64,000 bases of DNA, from contig NZ_QAXS01000003.1 in NCBI RefSeq assembly GCF_003053565.1, positions 1-64,000 of the forward strand, written 5' to 3'. The stretch's first letter is position 1. Each line of letters begins with the position of its first letter. The notes under the pieces were generated by a model, which saw only the letters and a list, made by a program, of their open reading frames with translations, was not told the DNA's origin and ran no database searches. Both the position numbers and the translations under genes were made by a program. Below are positions 7,899 through 26,735 of the stretch, one piece after another. The DNA comes from Halanaerobium saccharolyticum (GTDB lineage Bacteria; Bacillota; Halanaerobiia; Halanaerobiales; Halanaerobiaceae).

Positions 7899-8978
7899 TC
7901 AGGCAACTGTATATCTTGCTTTACCATCCTCTTTGGATTTATATAAAATATCATCTACTCGTTTGAATAAAGGCTGAATTTGATCACCTTTTTTTAGTCT
8001 GCTCAGTCCAGCACTAACAGTAATTGAAATATCCATTCTCTGGCTGAGCTTTTCGACATTTTGATAATAAGTATCCAGATTTTTTTGAGCTTCAACTTCA
8101 TTTTTATAACAGATCACTGCAAACTCATCACCACCCCAGCGTGAAATCAAAGAATTCTGAGGCAGTGTTCTCTCCAGCTCTGCTGCAAGTTTAATTAAAA
8201 CCTGATCTCCAATATCATGTCCATAATTATCATTGATTTCTTTAAAATTATCTATATCAAATAAAATTAAGGTTATCGCTTTATCCAGATGCTGCTGTTC
8301 TTTAAAAATATTTCTGATTTCCTGGTCAAATGCCCGGCGGTTATATTTTTTAGTTAGAGGGTCACGATTTGCCAGATTTTTTAATTTTTTGTTTGCCAGA
8401 CGGAGTTTTTTAGTTGAAAGACCAAGCTTGCTTTTTTCCTGGTTGTAGGCATTGGCAAACTGCAGTAACAAAAGATAAGAAGCCAATAACACAATTGGAG
8501 TCTGAACAAGTTTATCATAAAATTGAGATTCTTCACTGTGAGAAATCAAAAGCTCAGGGTAAAAATATTCTAAAGAGAACATTAACATAAATACAGCTAC
8601 TAAGCTAAAAATCAGGTTGTTTCTTAATTGAAAGCGCTTGAACAAAAAAGTTATTGAAATCAAAATCAAAAATATGTAGGAAAGACTATTATTATTACTT
8701 CCACCAGATTGAAACCAGGAAAAAGGTAAAAAAATAAAGATTAAAAAAAGATAATAACCCAGTTTTAAATAATAAACCTTAAAAACTTCTTTTCTAATAA
8801 ACATTAAACTAAAAAAAGAAATTCCAGCCATTACAATCCACTTTAGATTTATAATCAGACTAAAACCAATCAGGTAATTTATAACTATATTCAGCAGAGA
8901 AATTATTATCCCAAAAAGTAAGATAATCTTAAATATTTGATTTTCTAAATTATCATTGAGCTCATAATCTCTCTGCAT
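7899..8978 (-). CDS. Membrane-bound diguanylate cyclase (GGDEF domain)
   Basis: 359-residue inner-membrane protein that should make cyclic di-GMP. Residues about 15-175 hold six hydrophobic helices, followed by a short coiled linker (NQEKSKLGLSTKKLRLANKKL) and a GGDEF domain from about residue 200. The active-site motif RWGGDEFAVI is intact. The RxxD inhibitory site expected five residues before GGDEF is absent (LPQN is found), so product inhibition through the I-site is unlikely. The ATG has a GGGAG ribosome binding site. It stands alone. A c-di-GMP riboswitch occurs 17 kb away at 25883, so the signal has at least one local target. Confidence 0.93.
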   Translation of the reverse strand: MQRDYELNDNLENQIFKIILLFGIIISLLNIVINYLIGFSLIINLKWIVMAGISFFSLMFIRKEVFKVYYLKLGYYLFLIFIFLPFSWFQSGGSNNNSLSYIFLILISITFLFKRFQLRNNLIFSLVAVFMLMFSLEYFYPELLISHSEESQFYDKLVQTPIVLLASYLLLLQFANAYNQEKSKLGLSTKKLRLANKKLKNLANRDPLTKKYNRRAFDQEIRNIFKEQQHLDKAITLILFDIDNFKEINDNYGHDIGDQVLIKLAAELERTLPQNSLISRWGGDEFAVICYKNEVEAQKNLDTYYQNVEKLSQRMDISITVSAGLSRLKKGDQIQPLFKRVDDILYKSKEDGKARYTVA

Positions 8979-16522: not shown

Positions 16523-17641
16523 CTATGCAAAGCATTTTTTATAAACTTCCAGTGTCAGAAGCTCCTGCGGTAGCCTGAGGTCATTTTCCCAGGCCTGTTT
16601 CAGCTCTGCTGCCAGCTCATTATATCCCTGTTCTTCAAATTCGGTCAGTACCTGAGCCAGAACTTTTTGATTTTTATTCTGCCGCTTATGACAGGGATAA
16701 AAATTATCTGACTCCTCTACCAGCAGCTGATAATACTCTCCCAGAAGTTTAATCTTAAAATCAGGATATTTATTTCTCAAAGCCACATAAATTGCGAGTC
16801 CTTCCGGATCCAGGTCACCGGCATAACAAATATTTAAAGCTTCAAGCCGCTGCTGACGCTGCCTGGTCTTAACTTCTACAGCCTCCAGACCCAGCAGCTC
16901 CTCTAAAAAAGAAAAGCTTCTGATAATTCTTTTACCCTGGCCGTAAATTACAGTATCAAAATCTCGAGCAAAAATATCAATCCCGGCTGCCAGAGCTTTT
17001 TTGGCACCGATAAAGGCTGAATGATTTTCCATAACCAAAATATTATTGATTTGAGCTGGATCTACTGACCAGTAGACAAATAGATGATTGTACTGCTGAG
17101 CCTTTAAGTCAGCCAGGCTTAAATTTAAATTACTCAAAATCTTTTTGCCTGCAGTCCGGCTCAAAAATTTCTCATCTGCAAAAAGCTCCAGGGATCGCTC
17201 CTCCCGGCTGGCCGATTCTCGCTCAGATTTAGTTTTCAAAAAATCAGCCAGGCTAAATAATTTCTGCTTTAGCTCCTCTGTCTGCTGAACTGGCCTTTTA
17301 AGAAAATAGCTTAAATCAAGCTGGCGGGAGAGCTGTAAAATATCTTTATCCGACCAGCCTTCCACCTCTTCTTTAAGCATAGTCCAGCGTTTTTTTAAAC
17401 GAGGCTGCCGCTGATTGAACTCAGAACTTTTGATTGCTCTAATTCGCTCTTCAATTTCCATCTTTTTTAGAAGCTGATATAAATTCTGATAACCACCGGC
17501 TGCCTGATAGGCAGTAGCTCCTCCCAGTCTAGCTTTAATAAAATTTTCAAAATCAGCCAGCTGAAAGCGGAGCCTGCCCGCAAGCTCATCCTTTTTATAT
17601 TTTTCGAACAATCTAATCCATTTTTGCTCGTCTTTCACCAT
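16523..17641 (-). CDS. jetD: Wadjet nuclease subunit JetD (Toprim)
   Basis: 372-residue protein, the predicted nuclease of a Wadjet system, which in characterised systems cuts circular plasmid DNA after loop extrusion by JetABC. The C-terminal half is a Toprim fold: the catalytic Glu in ILVMENHSAF (Glu205) and the metal-binding DxD in CYAGDLDPEGLAI (Asp276, Asp278) are intact. The N-terminal half is helical and charged, as in known JetD arm domains. It overlaps jetC by 29 bases, and a GGACAGGTG ribosome binding site lies within the jetC end. Last gene of the operon. Confidence 0.93.
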   Translation of the reverse strand: MVKDEQKWIRLFEKYKKDELAGRLRFQLADFENFIKARLGGATAYQAAGGYQNLYQLLKKMEIEERIRAIKSSEFNQRQPRLKKRWTMLKEEVEGWSDKDILQLSRQLDLSYFLKRPVQQTEELKQKLFSLADFLKTKSERESASREERSLELFADEKFLSRTAGKKILSNLNLSLADLKAQQYNHLFVYWSVDPAQINNILVMENHSAFIGAKKALAAGIDIFARDFDTVIYGQGKRIIRSFSFLEELLGLEAVEVKTRQRQQRLEALNICYAGDLDPEGLAIYVALRNKYPDFKIKLLGEYYQLLVEESDNFYPCHKRQNKNQKVLAQVLTEFEEQGYNELAAELKQAWENDLRLPQELLTLEVYKKCFA

Positions 17642-20600
17642 AAATCACCTGTCCCTTGACAACACCCTGGTTGCGCTCAGTGTCACCGATCTCCAGTGCC
17701 CAGAAAACAGGAAAGCGCTCCGAAATTTCAGTTTTGATAATCTCCGGTGCAGCAAAGGCAACCAGCTGGAAATTAAGCTTATCGGCAATCTTAAAGATTG
17801 GATCCAGCACATGAGCTGCCGAAGCCTTACCAAAGGGATTATCCAGAAAAAGCACTGTCCAGGGATTTGACTTATCAAAACGCTGTTTTTTGTAATTTAA
17901 AAGCATCATCATCATGAAGGCATTGATCGAAAGTGACTGACCACCACTGCCCTCAGGTCCATTCCCCTTACCCTGAATCACTGATTCCCAGTCAGAATAG
18001 AAATAATCCTGGGGACGGGCATGGATAAATTCATTTTTTTCGGTCATTTTATAGACCTGGAGCACAGGATAGCGGCCGCGCAGTGCTCTTGAGAAAAGAG
18101 CGGCATCTCCACAGTATTCCTTGAGCTTATAATCCGGCAGCTGCTCAACATCAATTTCCTCCCGGTTAAATTTATTGATCAGCTCCAGGAAATATTCCTT
18201 CAGCTCTGCAATTACCTCCTGCCCATCATCAGGCAGCAGATCATCCCGGCGCAGTCTGACCAAAGGAAAGGCATGACCCCGCTGATTGTGGTAGACCATA
18301 TTGCTGATCATTTCCTTCATCGAAGTAATCAGCCGCATCACATGAATTGCCGAGCGCTCAGCCCACTGCTGTCTGGCCTCTTCTGCCTCCGTTTTGTTGC
18401 GGTCAATTGTGTTCAGCTCATTATTTATATATTCCTTAAAGGAATTCAGCATCTCATAGTTATACTGATAATCACTGGCGCGAAAGTTATGGAGCAGTTT
18501 TTCGTTGATGCTGTTTTTTAAGGTGATATTTTCCACCACATCTTTGACATCATTTTTAAAATGATAGAAATTATCTTCAGTCTTTTCCCGGAGAGACTTA
18601 AGCTTATTTTCAATAGCGCGGTAGTCATTCTCCCAGTTCTCGATAACTGCTGCCGGGGAATCCTTAAGTTCTTCTTTAACTCCGGCATTGAGTTCACCCT
18701 TTGCTGCCTCCAGCTGATAATATTCCAACTTATTGCTGAGGTTATTATAGATCTGTATTTTTTCCTGATAATTTAAAATCATCTCTTCCAGCTTGGAGAA
18801 ATAATCCCTATTTTCACTCAGCTCTTTTTTTATTTCCAGCTCCTTAATATTTAGCTCTACTTCCTCCCAGCTCTGAACCGAGCGCTGAAAACGACCTTTA
18901 ATTTCAGCTGCCTTCTCTTCCAGCTCATTTTCTCTTGATTCCAGTTGGCCGCGGCGGACCAAAATATCTTCCTGCAGGTTCTGAGCCTGCTTTTGGAGCT
19001 TTTTAAGCTGCTCACTTATTTCCTCCAGAGCAGTCTTAAGCTGACTCTGATTTTTGAAACCATAATCACGCTCTTCCCAGTCAGCAGAGATCTGAGTCAG
19101 TTCTGATTTCAGCTCATTAATATCTTTCAGCAGCTTCTGCAGCCCTGCCTCCAGGTATTTAAGTTCAGCTGCCTTTTCCTCTTCTTTTTTCTGGAGTGAA
19201 ATCACTTCCTCGTAGTTTAGATAACACTGATGCTGCTCAAAGGCAAAAAGCTCAGGATACTGCTCCCGGGGAGCAATGTTAAGCTCCTCTTTTCTAAATT
19301 CACTTTTCAGTTCAACCTGCCTGTCACTCAGCATTTCATTTAAGCTGCCGGCAAAGTCCCGCAGAGCCTGCAGCCAGTTCTCATAATTATTTTCCAGCCG
19401 CAGCTCTTCTTTCTGCCTCTTTTTCTGCTCTTTTTTATTATCTCCAAGCAGTCCCTCCAGCCGCTCTATCTCAGCCAGCGCTTCCTGATAGTGGCTTTCT
19501 TTCTTTTCCAGCTCCCTTTTTGCCTCCAGATAGTCTTTAACCTGCTTTTGATTTTCTTGAAGCTCAGTTAATTTTTTCTCTTTTTGCTGATATTCTTTGT
19601 TCAGAGAATTGATTTTTTCAGCTGTATTTTTAATCCTCTGCTCATATTTCTTGATTTCTGCCTGCAGAGATTCCAGTTTAGATTTCTCATTTCCCAATCT
19701 TATTTTGATTTCAGCAGCTGATTCTGCTGTCAGCATGGTCTCAGCCCGGTAGTTGAGCTGATTTAAGTTTTTGAGTTTTCGCTCCAGAATAGATATTGTC
19801 TCTCTAATCTCAGCCTCTTTGTTTTTTAAACCACTAAACCACTGCTCAAAATTCTTTTTATCCTCAGTAAAATTCTTTTCCGTACCGGTCAGAAGTTTAA
19901 AGGGAAGCTTAGAATCACTGCCGTTCAGCTGATGGTTGATAAAGATAGGTACAGCAAAGTGAGAAATCTCCTCTATAGAAATATTAGCCTTAATCTTTTC
20001 CCAGTCTGACTCATAAACTACCACCAGGCCATAAGGCAGCAGGGGATAGTCTTTTAGATATTTTTGCCGCTGCTCCACCAGTTCAAACAAAAATTCACTG
20101 CCGTAATAAACGCGAATATCGAGCTCTTTAATTTTCTGATAGAGCCTTTTCTGCTCCAGACTGGCCACCCAGTATTCTCTGTCATTTAGATTTAAGTCAA
20201 GCTGGAGCTCAAACTTATCTGCATTCAGCTCCTGCAGCCTTTCCTCTTTTTCGTTGATTAATTTTAAGAGTTCATTTTTTTGCTGCTGCAGCCACTGTTT
20301 ACTGTAAAATTCCTCAAATTTATCAAGATTTAAACTTTTTAGAAGCTGAGAAAAGAGCTCTTCCTCAGATTCTTTCTGTTTTTGAAGCTCTTCTTTTAGC
20401 TTTTCGACCATAGTCTCTTGAGCGGCTGCTTTAACTGCAGTCTGCTGTTTTTCAGCCTGCAGCTTTTCTTTCTGTTCTTGCTGTTCTTTTAAAGCTTCTT
20501 CCAGCTTTTCCAGTTTAGAATTTAAATTAGCTATATCTTTATCCAAATTCTGCAGCAGATACTCCGGCGTTTCCAGCTCCAACGGGTTAAAAAAGTGAGC

Positions 20601-22097
20601 CAACTTTTCTTTTTCGGCCTCAAACTGCTGCTTCTCGTGCTCATATTTTAACTTAAACTGCTGCTCATCTCTAATTTTTTGTTCAATCTTATTTTCTTCA
20701 GCTTCCAGCTGCTTAAGTTTCTCTGCTAAATATTTCTGATAGGAATAATAATCAGCAGCTGAATGTTTAATTTTAGAGTTTAGATCAGCAATTTCTGCAG
20801 CTGTCTCTTCCTTAAGTTTCTTGATTTCTGTTTCCAGTTCCTTAAATTCAGTTCTCTCTTTTAGAGAATTTATTTTTTCTCTTTTTGCTTCGGCTTCATT
20901 CAGCAGCTCCTCTAATTTGAGATATTTCTGGTTCAGCTTTAACTGCAGCTCTTCTGCTTTTAGCCGCTCAAGCTGACTATCTAATTTCTGCTGCTCAACT
21001 TCGGCGCTTTCCTGTTCTGACTTAAGTTTATTTAAAGCCCTCAGTTTTTTAACATATTTTAAGTTTTCTGATTCAAAATTAAGCTCTTTAATCCGCTCTG
21101 CAGTCTTTTCTTTTTCTCGCTGACTGCGGCGCAGCTCATTTTCTAAAAAAGTCCTGCGGTCTGCAATCCCTTTCAAATAATTATTTCCTCGCTCTCTGAT
21201 CATCTCCCGGGTTTCTTTAAGCTGCAGCCCCTGCTTAGCATCACTTAAGAGAGGGTCAACCATCTGGGAGAGAGTTTTTAAATCCTCGCGTCGGGATAAA
21301 AGCTCAGGCAGATTGCGGGCAATTTTTACATTGTCTACAAAAATATTGAGCAGCGAATTTTTTTCCCGCTCATTGTAATAACTGATGCTCTCACTGACAG
21401 CTGGAATAATCAACTGATCAAAAAGAGCCTTATTATCTTTTGCCTGCGAAAAATATTTCTCCAAACCTCCCTCACTGCGGTTGATATTTTTCATAATCTC
21501 CCACTCCGAACGATAAATCCCGTGGCTGCTTAAATACTGATAGTATTCCGAGTTAAGACTCGACACAGCTGTTTTGGAATATTTGATAAAATCAGCCCGA
21601 TTTTGATCAATGAATTCTTCCAGCCGCTGATATTCCAGCACCTGATCACTGCTTTTAGTGTAAAGGGGCAGATTAGTCAGACTAAAACGGCTATTACCCT
21701 GATACTCATGAGTATAGAGAAAATATTTTAGACCAACTTTGCCTTCTTCATCAGTTGTGCTCTGCTGTTTGTGAGCGGAAACACAGATTCCGGTCAAAAG
21801 CTTTTTATCTTCACTGCCATCAAGCCGCCACTCCAGCACCACGTGGAAGGTATAAGGCTGAAAAACCTGATAGCGGTCATAAAACATTCCCTCCAGCTTA
21901 TTTCCATTCCGCTTACCCCAGGCAGTTCCAGGAAGGAGGAGCTGAGAGATCAGCTGCAGCATAACCCCCTTACCACTGCCATTTTGCAGGGTAAAGAGAC
22001 TGTGGTCAGATTCCAGATCAAAGATTGAGTTCCGGTGCTGTTTCTGAAAACCATCATATTTATTCCCTGTAATCCTAATTTTGCTCAGTCTGGGCAT
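17613..22097 (-). CDS. jetC: Wadjet SMC-like ATPase JetC
   Basis: 1494-residue SMC-like motor. The N-terminal ATPase part has a P-loop-like LFTLQNGSGKGVMLQL (Lys43). Residues about 290-1200 are long charged coiled coils broken by a non-coil stretch near 640-760, probably the hinge. The C-terminal part has the ABC signature GSGGQSLSINAF (near 1383) and a Walker B-like VLFLDNPFGKAS (Asp1419). Two positions are unusual: Gly44 where Ser/Thr is expected after the Walker A Lys, and Asn where the catalytic Glu usually follows the Walker B Asp. The ATG has AGGAGG in the end of jetB and overlaps it by 23 bases. Confidence 0.95.
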   Translation of the reverse strand: MPRLSKIRITGNKYDGFQKQHRNSIFDLESDHSLFTLQNGSGKGVMLQLISQLLLPGTAWGKRNGNKLEGMFYDRYQVFQPYTFHVVLEWRLDGSEDKKLLTGICVSAHKQQSTTDEEGKVGLKYFLYTHEYQGNSRFSLTNLPLYTKSSDQVLEYQRLEEFIDQNRADFIKYSKTAVSSLNSEYYQYLSSHGIYRSEWEIMKNINRSEGGLEKYFSQAKDNKALFDQLIIPAVSESISYYNEREKNSLLNIFVDNVKIARNLPELLSRREDLKTLSQMVDPLLSDAKQGLQLKETREMIRERGNNYLKGIADRRTFLENELRRSQREKEKTAERIKELNFESENLKYVKKLRALNKLKSEQESAEVEQQKLDSQLERLKAEELQLKLNQKYLKLEELLNEAEAKREKINSLKERTEFKELETEIKKLKEETAAEIADLNSKIKHSAADYYSYQKYLAEKLKQLEAEENKIEQKIRDEQQFKLKYEHEKQQFEAEKEKLAHFFNPLELETPEYLLQNLDKDIANLNSKLEKLEEALKEQQEQKEKLQAEKQQTAVKAAAQETMVEKLKEELQKQKESEEELFSQLLKSLNLDKFEEFYSKQWLQQQKNELLKLINEKEERLQELNADKFELQLDLNLNDREYWVASLEQKRLYQKIKELDIRVYYGSEFLFELVEQRQKYLKDYPLLPYGLVVVYESDWEKIKANISIEEISHFAVPIFINHQLNGSDSKLPFKLLTGTEKNFTEDKKNFEQWFSGLKNKEAEIRETISILERKLKNLNQLNYRAETMLTAESAAEIKIRLGNEKSKLESLQAEIKKYEQRIKNTAEKINSLNKEYQQKEKKLTELQENQKQVKDYLEAKRELEKKESHYQEALAEIERLEGLLGDNKKEQKKRQKEELRLENNYENWLQALRDFAGSLNEMLSDRQVELKSEFRKEELNIAPREQYPELFAFEQHQCYLNYEEVISLQKKEEEKAAELKYLEAGLQKLLKDINELKSELTQISADWEERDYGFKNQSQLKTALEEISEQLKKLQKQAQNLQEDILVRRGQLESRENELEEKAAEIKGRFQRSVQSWEEVELNIKELEIKKELSENRDYFSKLEEMILNYQEKIQIYNNLSNKLEYYQLEAAKGELNAGVKEELKDSPAAVIENWENDYRAIENKLKSLREKTEDNFYHFKNDVKDVVENITLKNSINEKLLHNFRASDYQYNYEMLNSFKEYINNELNTIDRNKTEAEEARQQWAERSAIHVMRLITSMKEMISNMVYHNQRGHAFPLVRLRRDDLLPDDGQEVIAELKEYFLELINKFNREEIDVEQLPDYKLKEYCGDAALFSRALRGRYPVLQVYKMTEKNEFIHARPQDYFYSDWESVIQGKGNGPEGSGGQSLSINAFMMMMLLNYKKQRFDKSNPWTVLFLDNPFGKASAAHVLDPIFKIADKLNFQLVAFAAPEIIKTEISERFPVFWALEIGDTERNQGVVKGQVIYGERRAKMD

Positions 22098-22854
22098 TCT
22101 GATCTTCCTCCTCTAGCTCTTTTCTGCTTTCTAAAATCAAATCCATAAATTTATTGTAGCGCTTCTGGCTGTGGTAGAGTTCATCCAGCCGTTCATAAAG
22201 CTCCGCTTTTGGAATCAGCTTTAGCTCATCACTCTGGTCAATAATCAATCCCTGTTCAGTTAAGGGTTTCAAAGCCGTGTTAATAAAAGAAAGTCGATTA
22301 CCCTTAGTTCTGGTCACATCCACCTGCTCATCCTTATTCAGCCGATATTCGCTAAACTCAGTCAGCCAGAGCTCAGCCACCTCTTCCACGGCAATTGACC
22401 AATTTTGAGTAAAGGACTCATCTTCTTTTTTGCGCTCAAGCCAGCTCTCTAAAGTTGCGGTAACCAGGTCAGAAAGGCGGTGATAGGAGATTCCTTCCTC
22501 TTCCCAGCGTATCCGAACATGACTTTCTTTATCAATCTCAGCCAGAAAAATTGAAATAATGATATTGGCCAGATAAAAATAGCGCTTCCGCCTGAGGCCG
22601 GAATATTTTTCTTTCATCTGGGTATATGAATTAGCAAAACTTGAGCCTCTTGCCTTGGAGACAAGATGAACATTTTTGGCCGTTGAAAAAACTCTTAAAC
22701 CCGCCTCAGCAGCCATGGTGTTGACGATATTATGTACCTCACTGTTAGTTCTGTACTTTTCAGCCAGCGGATCAGAGACTGAAAGAATCTCTTCTTCTAA
22801 AAGTTTGAAAAATAGGGCGGCTCCATTTTCGAGCTCTTCCTGTTTAAATGCCAT
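22075..22854 (-). CDS. jetB: Wadjet kite-like subunit JetB
   Basis: 259-residue protein in the position of JetB, the MukE/kite-type subunit that bridges JetA and JetC. It is mostly helical and acidic with winged-helix-like segments (for example RLSFINTALKPLTEQGLIID). The ATG at 22854 is preferred over one 17 codons upstream because GGAGG lies just before it inside the jetA end and it leaves one base after the jetA stop. Sequence similarity by eye is weak; the call rests on gene order and size. Confidence 0.88.
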   Translation of the reverse strand: MAFKQEELENGAALFFKLLEEEILSVSDPLAEKYRTNSEVHNIVNTMAAEAGLRVFSTAKNVHLVSKARGSSFANSYTQMKEKYSGLRRKRYFYLANIIISIFLAEIDKESHVRIRWEEEGISYHRLSDLVTATLESWLERKKEDESFTQNWSIAVEEVAELWLTEFSEYRLNKDEQVDVTRTKGNRLSFINTALKPLTEQGLIIDQSDELKLIPKAELYERLDELYHSQKRYNKFMDLILESRKELEEEDQNAQTEQN

Positions 22855-22855
22855 T

Positions 22856-24346
22856 TTAATCTTCCTCCAGATAAATTTTATAGGGTGAAATAATAAACTG
22901 ATCAAGTAGATTTACTTTTTTACTGCTGCCTGTCAGCCTGGCTGCGAGTTTTTTACCTTCCAGCTCAGCCAGTTTTGGCTCGGCTTTTACTAACTTATTG
23001 AATAAAAGCAGCCGCTCATCCAGTCCCGGATATTCTTCCACAATTTTAAGTCTAATATCGGTGATGATAAACATCATAAATAACTCCAGATTAATTGGCT
23101 GACTCAGCCATTTCTCTTTTTTGGCTGTGCTCAGCTGATTTAGTTCTGTCAGCTTAAATTCTCCTTTTTGCAGCAGCTCGTTAAAAACATCCTGCCAGAG
23201 TTCAACCGCAAGCTCCCAGTCTATTTCCCGCTCTGGAGCTGAGTCAATTTCTACTGTTTCTATTTCCCCTTCACTTTCTTCCAGATAGCTGTAAAGCTGT
23301 TGTTCAGACCAGGCCCAGTCTAGGGGAAAGATAAAGTTCTGCTTCGGTGAAAAAAATGGATTTAACATTTTTTCTAAATCATCAATTTTAGGTAAGCCAG
23401 ATTTAACTACAGTATTCTGCCAGAAATCTTTTTTAAAACTCAGGCGAGAAGTCTGCCAGAAAATATCGGGATTTTCCCGTCTCAGCTGCAGCTCAAGTGA
23501 CAGATTGGAAACTGTCAGTTCTGCCAGATAATCATGGAGAGCTCTTGCTCGCTCCAGTTCTTCAAATAGGAGTTCTCCTTCTTTCTGATCAACATTTTCA
23601 AAACTGTCCAGCCTGTCCCGCCAGACAAAAATATCACTGAAAACTTTTTTCTCTTCTTTAAACTGCTCCCTGACCTCAGCCTCAGTCCGACGTCGGCGCT
23701 CTTTGTAGGCTGAAAATATCAGGCCCGGATTGCGCAGTATATCCTCCCGCCAGTCCTTTTCCTTTTTGATCAAGTTGCGGACCCGGGCAATTAAATTGCT
23801 GACACTGCCTTTAGCTTCTTTAAAGTTACCGTTTTTAATCAGCTGCAGAGTATAAAACTGCTCCAGATCAAAACCAAACTCCTGCAGAATCTCCCTGGTA
23901 ATAAAAATTATCTCCTGTGAAATCTCGGAGAGCCTGTAGACTGTGCTCCCACCTTCCTGCCAGTTGGAAGCCTCCCGGTCCGGAATCAAATAGCGGTATT
24001 TAAAATCTCTAAATCCTCCCGCTGTTTCATCATAAATTTTGACATGAAAATATGACTGCTGTTTGGGATCTCCCGAATAAAGAACTCCATCCACCAGTCT
24101 TTCAATTTCTTCCATATTTATATTAAGCTGCATTTCTTTTAAAATTTCAACAGTCAGCTGCAGCAAATCACTGCGGCTGCGCTGCTGATTATTATTTATT
24201 TCTCTTTTGAAAACCTTTAGCAGCAGGTAAAGAGAAATTTGATGGGAATATTCGTTAAGTGTGCCCACATCCATTCCCTGTCCCAGTTCTGCTATTGCTT
24301 TTGTCTTTTTTAAGCGCTCATGTAAACCTGTATTTGCCTGATCCAT
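22856..24346 (-). CDS. jetA: Wadjet kleisin-like subunit JetA
   Basis: 496-residue protein in the first position of the operon. Gene order and size match the JetA proteins of clostridial-type Wadjet systems (I recall the DUF5716 kind, which suggests type II, but subtype needs a search). Characterised JetA proteins act as the kleisin (MukF-like) that links two JetC heads. The start NTGLHERLKKTKAIAELGQGMD and the acidic helical middle (about 200-290) fit this. The ATG is preceded by GGAGAGG. No transposase or other defence gene flanks the operon. Confidence 0.9.
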   Translation of the reverse strand: MDQANTGLHERLKKTKAIAELGQGMDVGTLNEYSHQISLYLLLKVFKREINNNQQRSRSDLLQLTVEILKEMQLNINMEEIERLVDGVLYSGDPKQQSYFHVKIYDETAGGFRDFKYRYLIPDREASNWQEGGSTVYRLSEISQEIIFITREILQEFGFDLEQFYTLQLIKNGNFKEAKGSVSNLIARVRNLIKKEKDWREDILRNPGLIFSAYKERRRRTEAEVREQFKEEKKVFSDIFVWRDRLDSFENVDQKEGELLFEELERARALHDYLAELTVSNLSLELQLRRENPDIFWQTSRLSFKKDFWQNTVVKSGLPKIDDLEKMLNPFFSPKQNFIFPLDWAWSEQQLYSYLEESEGEIETVEIDSAPEREIDWELAVELWQDVFNELLQKGEFKLTELNQLSTAKKEKWLSQPINLELFMMFIITDIRLKIVEEYPGLDERLLLFNKLVKAEPKLAELEGKKLAARLTGSSKKVNLLDQFIISPYKIYLEED

Positions 24347-25554: not shown

Positions 25555-25882
25555 TTAACTCACTCCTCAATTATTTTTCTGTACTTTTTAATCCTGATAA
25601 ATTATTAATATTCTCTCATAACTATTATTCTTTTTAAGCAGTAAACTTCCTGCTTTATTGCTAAGATTATAATAGTTTAAGAGCACTGGTTTTCATTAAA
25701 TTGAAGCTTTATATTTTTAAAAAACAAGGTTATGTAAAATTATTTTAGCCATTTAATAAAAGTAATAAAATAAATTTATTAGAAATATATGTGAATATAA
25801 GCAGGAATTATCCTCTTTATAGCAAATATATTATATAGAATTAAGATAAAATTTTTACAAATCTAAAATCAAATATTTATAA

Positions 25883-25956
25883 GGGCAAAATAATTGAAAG
25901 ATTATTACGCAAAGATCTGAATCTAAGGATTTTATCTATGATTGTCAGATTTGCCT
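25883..25956 (+). promoter_or_regulatory. Cyclic di-GMP-I riboswitch (GEMM)
   Basis: All hallmarks are present in order: GGGCAAAA, a hairpin AATAAT-TGAAAG-ATTATT with a GAAA tetraloop, then ACGCAAAG, a stem ATCTGA/TCAGAT enclosing CTAAGG and CTATG, and a closing TTGCC that pairs with GGCAA at the 5' side. The layout matches clostridial GEMM-I aptamers. The remaining 25560-25880 is AT-rich with no gene or clear promoter. Specificity for c-di-GMP rather than cGAMP is assumed from the usual class. Confidence 0.93.
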
Positions 25957-25967
25957 CAGGTATTTAA

Positions 25968-25999
25968 GGCCACAGTGATGAAAATTGCTGTGGTTTTTT
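25968..25999 (+). terminator. Riboswitch expression-platform terminator
   Basis: CCACAG (25970-25975) pairs with CTGTGG (25988-25993), followed by six T. It can be extended by wobble pairs with the AAGG before it. AGGC (25967-25970) could alternatively pair with GCCT (25953-25956) of the aptamer P1, so ligand binding would free the terminator; an OFF switch is therefore favoured, weakly. Confidence 0.88.
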
Positions 26000-26055
26000 G
26001 TATAAAAATTATAATTAAATCGCTTGGTAGAATTTGCAGCAGGGAGGATTAAAAT

Positions 26056-26652
26056 ATGAAAGTATTAGATTTCTTTAAAAAAAGCAAAGAATATAATTTT
26101 ATTAAAAACAATGATTTAGAGGACTGGTGGAATAACAATTTTAGTGAAAGGGAAAGAAAAAAAATAATCTCTGAAAGTGCATATCTTCTTCAAAATAAAT
26201 CAAAGAAAACAGCTGCCAGAACACTGTATCTGCTGGCTGGAAATGTAATCACAAAATTTTACAATCAGAATCCAGAAGTTGTAATCCGCATCTTAAATAA
26301 GGCAGCTGAATTATCAGATGAGCCAATGGAATTATTTGAAATCCACTCTCAGTTAATTAAACTTTACTCTGATAGAGAAAATGAAGATGACAAAAATAAA
26401 GAGAAAATAATTAAGCTCTGCCAAAAACAAATTGCCATCTCTGAAGATGTTCTCAAAATCTTAAAGAACAAAGATCATGAAGCTCAAAAATCCAGTTATC
26501 CGGCTCATATTGGTTATCAAAAATTAGCATTAATTAGATTTAGAGAAGGAAATAAAGAAAAGGCTGTTCATTTACTTAAAAAAGCAAAGAAAGAAAATTG
26601 GAAGGGTGACTGGGATCAAATCCTGACAGAATTTAATTCTAATAGAGAATAA
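26056..26652 (+). CDS. Helical protein of unknown function under c-di-GMP riboswitch control
   Basis: 198-residue soluble protein, no signal peptide or membrane segment. It is highly charged and appears all-helical. Segments such as ARTLYLLAGNVITKFYNQNPE and KLALIRFREGNKEKAVHLLKKA look like tetratricopeptide-type helix pairs. Residues 95-135 are very Lys/Asp/Glu-rich. I do not recognise a named family. GGGAGG lies 7 bases before the ATG. The gene is one of only two on the plus strand, is preceded by a c-di-GMP-I riboswitch and terminator, and ends in a terminator, so it is a single-gene c-di-GMP regulon member. Roles in surface attachment, secretion or motility are possible but only inferred from the ligand. 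Confidence 0.88.
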   Translation: MKVLDFFKKSKEYNFIKNNDLEDWWNNNFSERERKKIISESAYLLQNKSKKTAARTLYLLAGNVITKFYNQNPEVVIRILNKAAELSDEPMELFEIHSQLIKLYSDRENEDDKNKEKIIKLCQKQIAISEDVLKILKNKDHEAQKSSYPAHIGYQKLALIRFREGNKEKAVHLLKKAKKENWKGDWDQILTEFNSNRE

Positions 26653-26695: not shown

Positions 26696-26735
26696 AAAGC
26701 TTAGAGGCCTTCTCTTAAAAAGGCTTCTAAGCTTT
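26696..26735. terminator. Bidirectional terminator between convergent genes
   Basis: A 16-base stem with one wobble pair: AAAGCTTAGAGGCCTT against AAGGCTTCTAAGCTTT, with an 8-base loop. It lies between the unknown plus-strand gene and the minus-strand lacI gene and can serve both. Confidence 0.85.

Follow-up and report, generated by a model that had tools for sequence, protein, structure and literature searches.

Among the described systems closest to the locus reported here is Cd1 of C. difficile, an OFF-switch whose aptamer and terminator can form side by side, in competition with an antiterminator (PMC9262584). All seven functional class I switches of C. difficile are OFF-switches, some others in that organism are non-functional, and an ON-switch of the same class is known in Bc2 of B. 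thuringiensis (PMC6366702). Class I switches ahead of conserved hypothetical and prophage genes have already been described in C. difficile (PMC3649979). With respect to the ligand, preference depends on position 20, with G for c-di-GMP and A for cGAMP, and the A20G substitution makes Gmet_0970 bind c-di-GMP (PMC6456294). Our full-text literature search, which covered few subscription journals, found no paper joining Halanaerobium, c-di-GMP and a riboswitch. The locus lies in the first 64,000 nucleotides of contig NZ_QAXS01000003.1 of the halophile Halanaerobium saccharolyticum (the window; genome G000 in our set). We consider it probable that a class I c-di-GMP riboswitch there controls the gene of a soluble TPR-like protein, P0001, most likely as a transcriptional OFF-switch, and that this gene is an acquired accessory one.

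The aptamer (25874-25958, plus strand, as are the features given below from the candidate promoter to the ORF) matched Rfam family RF01051 (c-di-GMP-I, or GEMM-I) with cmscan over the complete model, positions 1-87 (E 4.3e-9; 59.4 bits, where the gathering score is 35), and RF01051 was the sole Rfam family over threshold in the 64-kb window. The match contains GGGCAAAA (25883-25890), ACGCAAAG, conserved GC pairs, CUAAGG (25923-25928) and UUGCC (25951-25955). The GNRA tetraloop and the tetraloop receptor expected of RF01051 are both present: sequence and fold place a GAAA tetraloop on the first hairpin (25896-25899), and the cmscan alignment places a receptor-like element at 25923-25940, made of CUAAG (25923-25927) and UAUG (25937-25940). 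Counting against our reading, the P1 stem that closes the aptamer is weak and lies outside the Rfam model. The sequence-only reading, which had described a complete GEMM-I aptamer with its sequence motifs and a GAAA-capped stem and had proposed an Infernal search, was thus borne out by a significant full-length match. Judged by its sequence, the element is a genuine class I c-di-GMP riboswitch preceding a 198-aa ORF, with c-di-GMP as the predicted ligand.

This prediction draws on position 20 (Vc2 numbering), which our own mapping of Vc2 to model numbering places at 25884, aligned by cmscan to model position 11. The base there is G, the c-di-GMP type, and not the A20 that marks 3',3'-cGAMP riboswitches (GEMM-Ib), which supports c-di-GMP as the probable ligand. 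Sensing of 3',3'-cGAMP instead would be conceivable in that cGAMP switches have the same fold and Rfam family as c-di-GMP-I; we regard it as extremely improbable, given the G at a position where A marks the cGAMP type (PMC6456294) and given that 12 genus genomes, with about 195 canonical GGDEF motifs, yielded no motif of the Hypr type (GHxxG[S/T/C/W/R]). Position 20 varies across the 51 genus GEMM-I aptamers that we compared (L001-L060), where 29 carry G, 21 carry A and one carries C; an own-genome case is L005 1501-1588. Apparently orthologous switches differ there, as do L019 (A) and L027 (G), both before similar 483-aa proteins. Since the longer Hypr-like motif NDxxGHxxG[S/T/C/W/R] was likewise not found in the 12 genomes, A20 in Halanaerobium aptamers may not signify cGAMP.

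Downstream of the aptamer, an intrinsic terminator (CCACAGUGAU-GAAA-AUUGCUGUGG then U6, 25970-25999) was confirmed, as had been claimed from the letters: its stem-loop, folded over 25968-25999, reaches -15 kcal/mol with a z score of -4.9 against shuffles, and aptamer and terminator folded together give a z of -3.45. The terminator lies wholly outside the aptamer and the minimum-energy fold holds both, which is the arrangement that Cd1-type switching calls for. Because the terminator uses no aptamer base, ligand binding cannot directly block it. A possible antiterminator exists as well. As drawn, UUGUCA at the aptamer 3' part (25942-25947) would pair with UGAUGA in the terminator 5' arm (25976-25981; predicted duplex -9.4 kcal/mol), and GCCU at the aptamer 3' edge (25953-25956) with AGGC (25967-25970). 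Without ligand, the aptamer conformer (-17.3 kcal/mol) and the antiterminator conformer (-17.0 kcal/mol) are within 0.3 kcal/mol of each other. An outside terminator that can coexist with the aptamer, together with a possible antiterminator, makes the OFF reading likely, with the pairing as drawn a candidate. When terminator arms were swapped among leaders, the window duplex ranked first of 13; over all 13 leaders in the test, own pairs were no better than swapped ones (p 0.37), and we rejected an antiterminator covarying across the genus.

We propose that at high c-di-GMP the aptamer would be held closed, terminator 25970-25999 would form and the gene would be silent. At low c-di-GMP, the antiterminator pairing would let RNA polymerase read through, and P0001 would be made in the low-c-di-GMP state. 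The alternative, an aptamer that works as an ON-switch or via translation, with c-di-GMP freeing the Shine-Dalgarno sequence or preventing termination, seems unlikely to us. Class I ON-switches do exist (PMC6366702), a terminator was not detectable by scan in most leaders of the genus, and the orthologous leader in another Halanaerobium genome, G009, lacks the terminator (L011 1350-1502) and has a CCUC at the aptamer 3' edge predicted to pair with its Shine-Dalgarno. If functional at all, the G009 switch might thus have the opposite, translational sign. In the window, however, the terminator shares no base with the aptamer through which the ligand could block it, and the Shine-Dalgarno sequence (GGGAGG, 26042-26047, 8 nt 5' of the ATG) is just partly paired in either state. 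A transcriptional OFF-switch is consequently our best reading, its sign and antiterminator being predicted. The model joins computed parts (aptamer, G20, terminator, single-gene unit, TPR-like fold and purifying selection) to a ligand, a sign and an antiterminator that we infer.

The gene behind this switch stands alone. The P0001 ORF (26056-26652) is followed by a hairpin terminator (26696-26735, -23.7 kcal/mol) that parts it from a convergent LacI-type gene and closes the unit, which makes it monocistronic, in agreement with the earlier description of a single gene behind the riboswitch. Upstream, a consensus scan gave a weak candidate sigma-70 promoter (TTAAGA-17-TAAAAT, 25841-25869, 9/12), in a region where promoter-like sites show no excess over shuffles (within about 1 sd). 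The diguanylate cyclase announced for the window is indeed present (7899-8978, minus strand, GGDEF Pfam E 3.4e-37, GGDEF motif intact); at 18 kb from the riboswitch and as one of 27 GGDEF matches in the genome, its presence provides no evidence of a link. The window also encodes a complete Wadjet type III system, jetABCD (16523-24346, minus strand; JetA3 E 2.6e-190, JetB3 1.2e-94, JetC3 2.1e-186, JetD3 1.1e-85). We considered and rejected a link between P0001 and this adjoining system: jetA (in G005 also jetB) also comes after the same dehydrogenase in genomes that have no TPR gene in the corresponding interval (G005), so the adjacency is not conserved.

P0001 falls below every curated Pfam and NCBIfam cut-off, as expected from its description as a helical, TPR-like protein of no assignable family; TPR_2 scores 15.3 bits against a cut-off of 27, and the cut-off of the Pfam TPR clan is not reached. 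The structure prediction that had been suggested gave an all-helical AlphaFold model (mean pLDDT 84.9). Foldseek against the PDB returned no match at E 0.001 or better, and the top rows from a second structural aligner were mainly generic TPR proteins at Z 10-11.5, values that helical repeats reach easily and that speak to fold, not function. We are confident that P0001 is a TPR-like alpha-solenoid, as modeled. Residues ~50-198 superpose on the TPR domains of HOP (TPR2A) and CHIP at Z 10-11; unlike those proteins, P0001 has no sequence match over a Pfam cut-off, and the N-terminal part of its family, with a WW motif, is family-specific. From the fold, P0001 is most likely a peptide- or protein-binding adaptor. 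Among viral structures, an uncharacterised protein of a siphovirus matched best (E 4.2e-5, TM 0.64/0.69), and the phage family phrog_22434, of unassigned function, matches the C-terminal half of P0001 (residues 94-183 only, E 1.7e-6) as well as 8 of 10 relatives; its profile of 114 positions nevertheless covers part of P0001 only, and no riboswitch link characterises that family. None of the PADLOC models matched P0001 at E up to 1, and one relative hit a generic TPR model at 0.014. Compared with four homologues from the genus, the P0001 gene has an NG86 dN/dS of 0.20-0.46, consistent with a real protein, although dS approaches saturation.

The P0001 family is rare in the phylum, with matches in 4 of 398 genomes using the genus alignment and in 2 of 398 using the PHROG, and its distribution is patchy: four other Halanaerobium genomes, one Erwinia phage, Roseobacter plasmids, a transposon and a contig that also bears HsdS and SIR2-like genes. 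In the Erwinia phage vB_EhrS_49, the relative adjoins a CI-like Peptidase_S24/HTH repressor; plasmids of Pseudosulfitobacter and Sulfitobacter each encode one; and in G312 a SIR2-like gene and an HsdS domain accompany the relative. Viral contigs searched with the genus alignment yielded no relative, the wider alignment offered no segment of sufficient conservation for such a search, and a search of genome contigs yielded two Halanaerobium records only. Members of this rare family occur mainly on phages, plasmids and transposons, so P0001 is probably encoded by an accessory gene that was acquired. In G052, three tyrosine recombinases and a DUF6262 protein precede a distant TPR-like homologue (L142 7128-12674). 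This arrangement resembles that of Tn554-type elements. The company of homologues (a CI-like repressor, HsdS and SIR2-like genes, plasmids, three tyrosine recombinases) could be taken to mean that the protein gated by c-di-GMP derives from a phage or transposon and has a role in defence or in the control of mobile elements. If true, the motile/sessile signal would set when such a protein is made; we find this quite doubtful, as the link is by location alone at few loci, with the background rate for any small gene there uncontrolled.

The pairing of riboswitch and gene occurs in 2 of the 12 genus genomes searched, that of the window and G009. Between these two, the aptamer is 93.4% identical (25883-25958), compared with 62.3% upstream, 66.7% in the remaining leader, with a 37-nt gap, and 69.1% at the gene start. 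An identity of 93% against 62-69% in the flanks points to selection on the aptamer. Our computations indicate purifying selection on both aptamer and protein. As to whether homologues elsewhere also sit behind the riboswitch, this holds for the G009 relative and for none of the other loci checked: RF01051 did not reach the gathering score upstream of the homologues at L009, L010, L012-L015, L061, L062, L064, L067, L068 and L077. Because just one relative shares the riboswitch, the predicted c-di-GMP control of the P0001 gene is lineage-specific and not a general c-di-GMP readout. The sequence-only reading had valued the locus as an entry point to the targets of the signal, a value curtailed by so rare a pairing and by a rare family met mostly in mobile-element settings.

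The same comparison raises the question of decay, in which a riboswitch that formerly functioned would have been carried along with an accessory gene and would no longer regulate it. Besides its missing terminator, G009 has an internal deletion of ~60 residues in the protein, and in strain G003, near-identical to the window, neither riboswitch nor gene was matched, in a genome that is only 83% complete. The G003 contigs break at window positions 25691 and 26669; abutting the latter is the end of a multicopy element, probably an IS (L109 1-100). Loss of riboswitch and gene is thereby suggested for G003, at 83% completeness, and class I riboswitches without function do occur in C. difficile (PMC6366702). 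On the other hand, no other part of the locus approaches the aptamer in conservation between the window and G009, and the window copy retains a complete aptamer and a strong terminator, so that we judge decay to be improbable and retain a working OFF-switch as our reading of the window copy. Of note, the multicopy end in L109 also matches C73, C3, C44, C43, C11 and C71 of the window's genome, and in G005 the interval between the LacI and dehydrogenase genes is occupied by another ORF.

Riboswitches of this class are in wide use in Halanaerobium. RF01051 gave 53 matches in the 12 genus genomes, seven of them in the window's genome, of which six are above the cut-off and one is weak. Downstream genes, judged by eye from their first residues for 51 aptamers, include those of flagellar rod proteins, FapA-like proteins, PilB/GspE-like ATPases, chemotaxis receptors, PAS/GGDEF proteins and small secreted proteins. 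G009 aside, the leaders nearest to that of the window head unrelated genes, two of them for a pilus-like protein and a beta-helix surface protein and the third a transposase ORF; different genes have thus received copies of the riboswitch. We propose that the accessory gene would have come under a copy of a riboswitch already in use elsewhere in the genus, probably a case of riboswitch capture of a mobile accessory gene. Two further arrangements were noted in this survey. In the window's genome, tandem c-di-GMP-I aptamers (L002 and L006, G000:C21 48693-48916) precede an 81-aa protein with a signal-peptide-like start, and in G007 an aptamer lies directly 5' of a transposase-like ORF (L034, G007:C1 2552413-2552502), where an IS probably inserted downstream of the riboswitch.

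The locus adds a well-supported c-di-GMP riboswitch, unusual for its cytoplasmic target, to a genus in which the RF01051 class serves flagella, pili, chemotaxis and surface proteins. It offers a small testable unit of one aptamer, one terminator and one gene, as well as an example of riboswitch copies moving between genes inside one genus. A close mechanistic counterpart is Cd1 (Cdi1_3), which has the same aptamer class and a terminator 3' of the aptamer with which it can coexist, and whose use of the aptamer 3' strand the antiterminator drawn here would share (PMC9262584). Cd1, however, controls the flgB flagellar operon, as shown experimentally, whereas the predicted target in the window is one TPR-like gene, deduced from the DNA itself. 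In its setting, the locus resembles Cdi1_4, 5 and 8-11 of C. difficile, class I elements before proteins without assigned function, some of them in prophage, that were multiplied by duplication (PMC3649979). Those elements serve other proteins in another host, and most were shown to be c-di-GMP-responsive; the window riboswitch adds to this group of class I switches known before genes without an assigned function.
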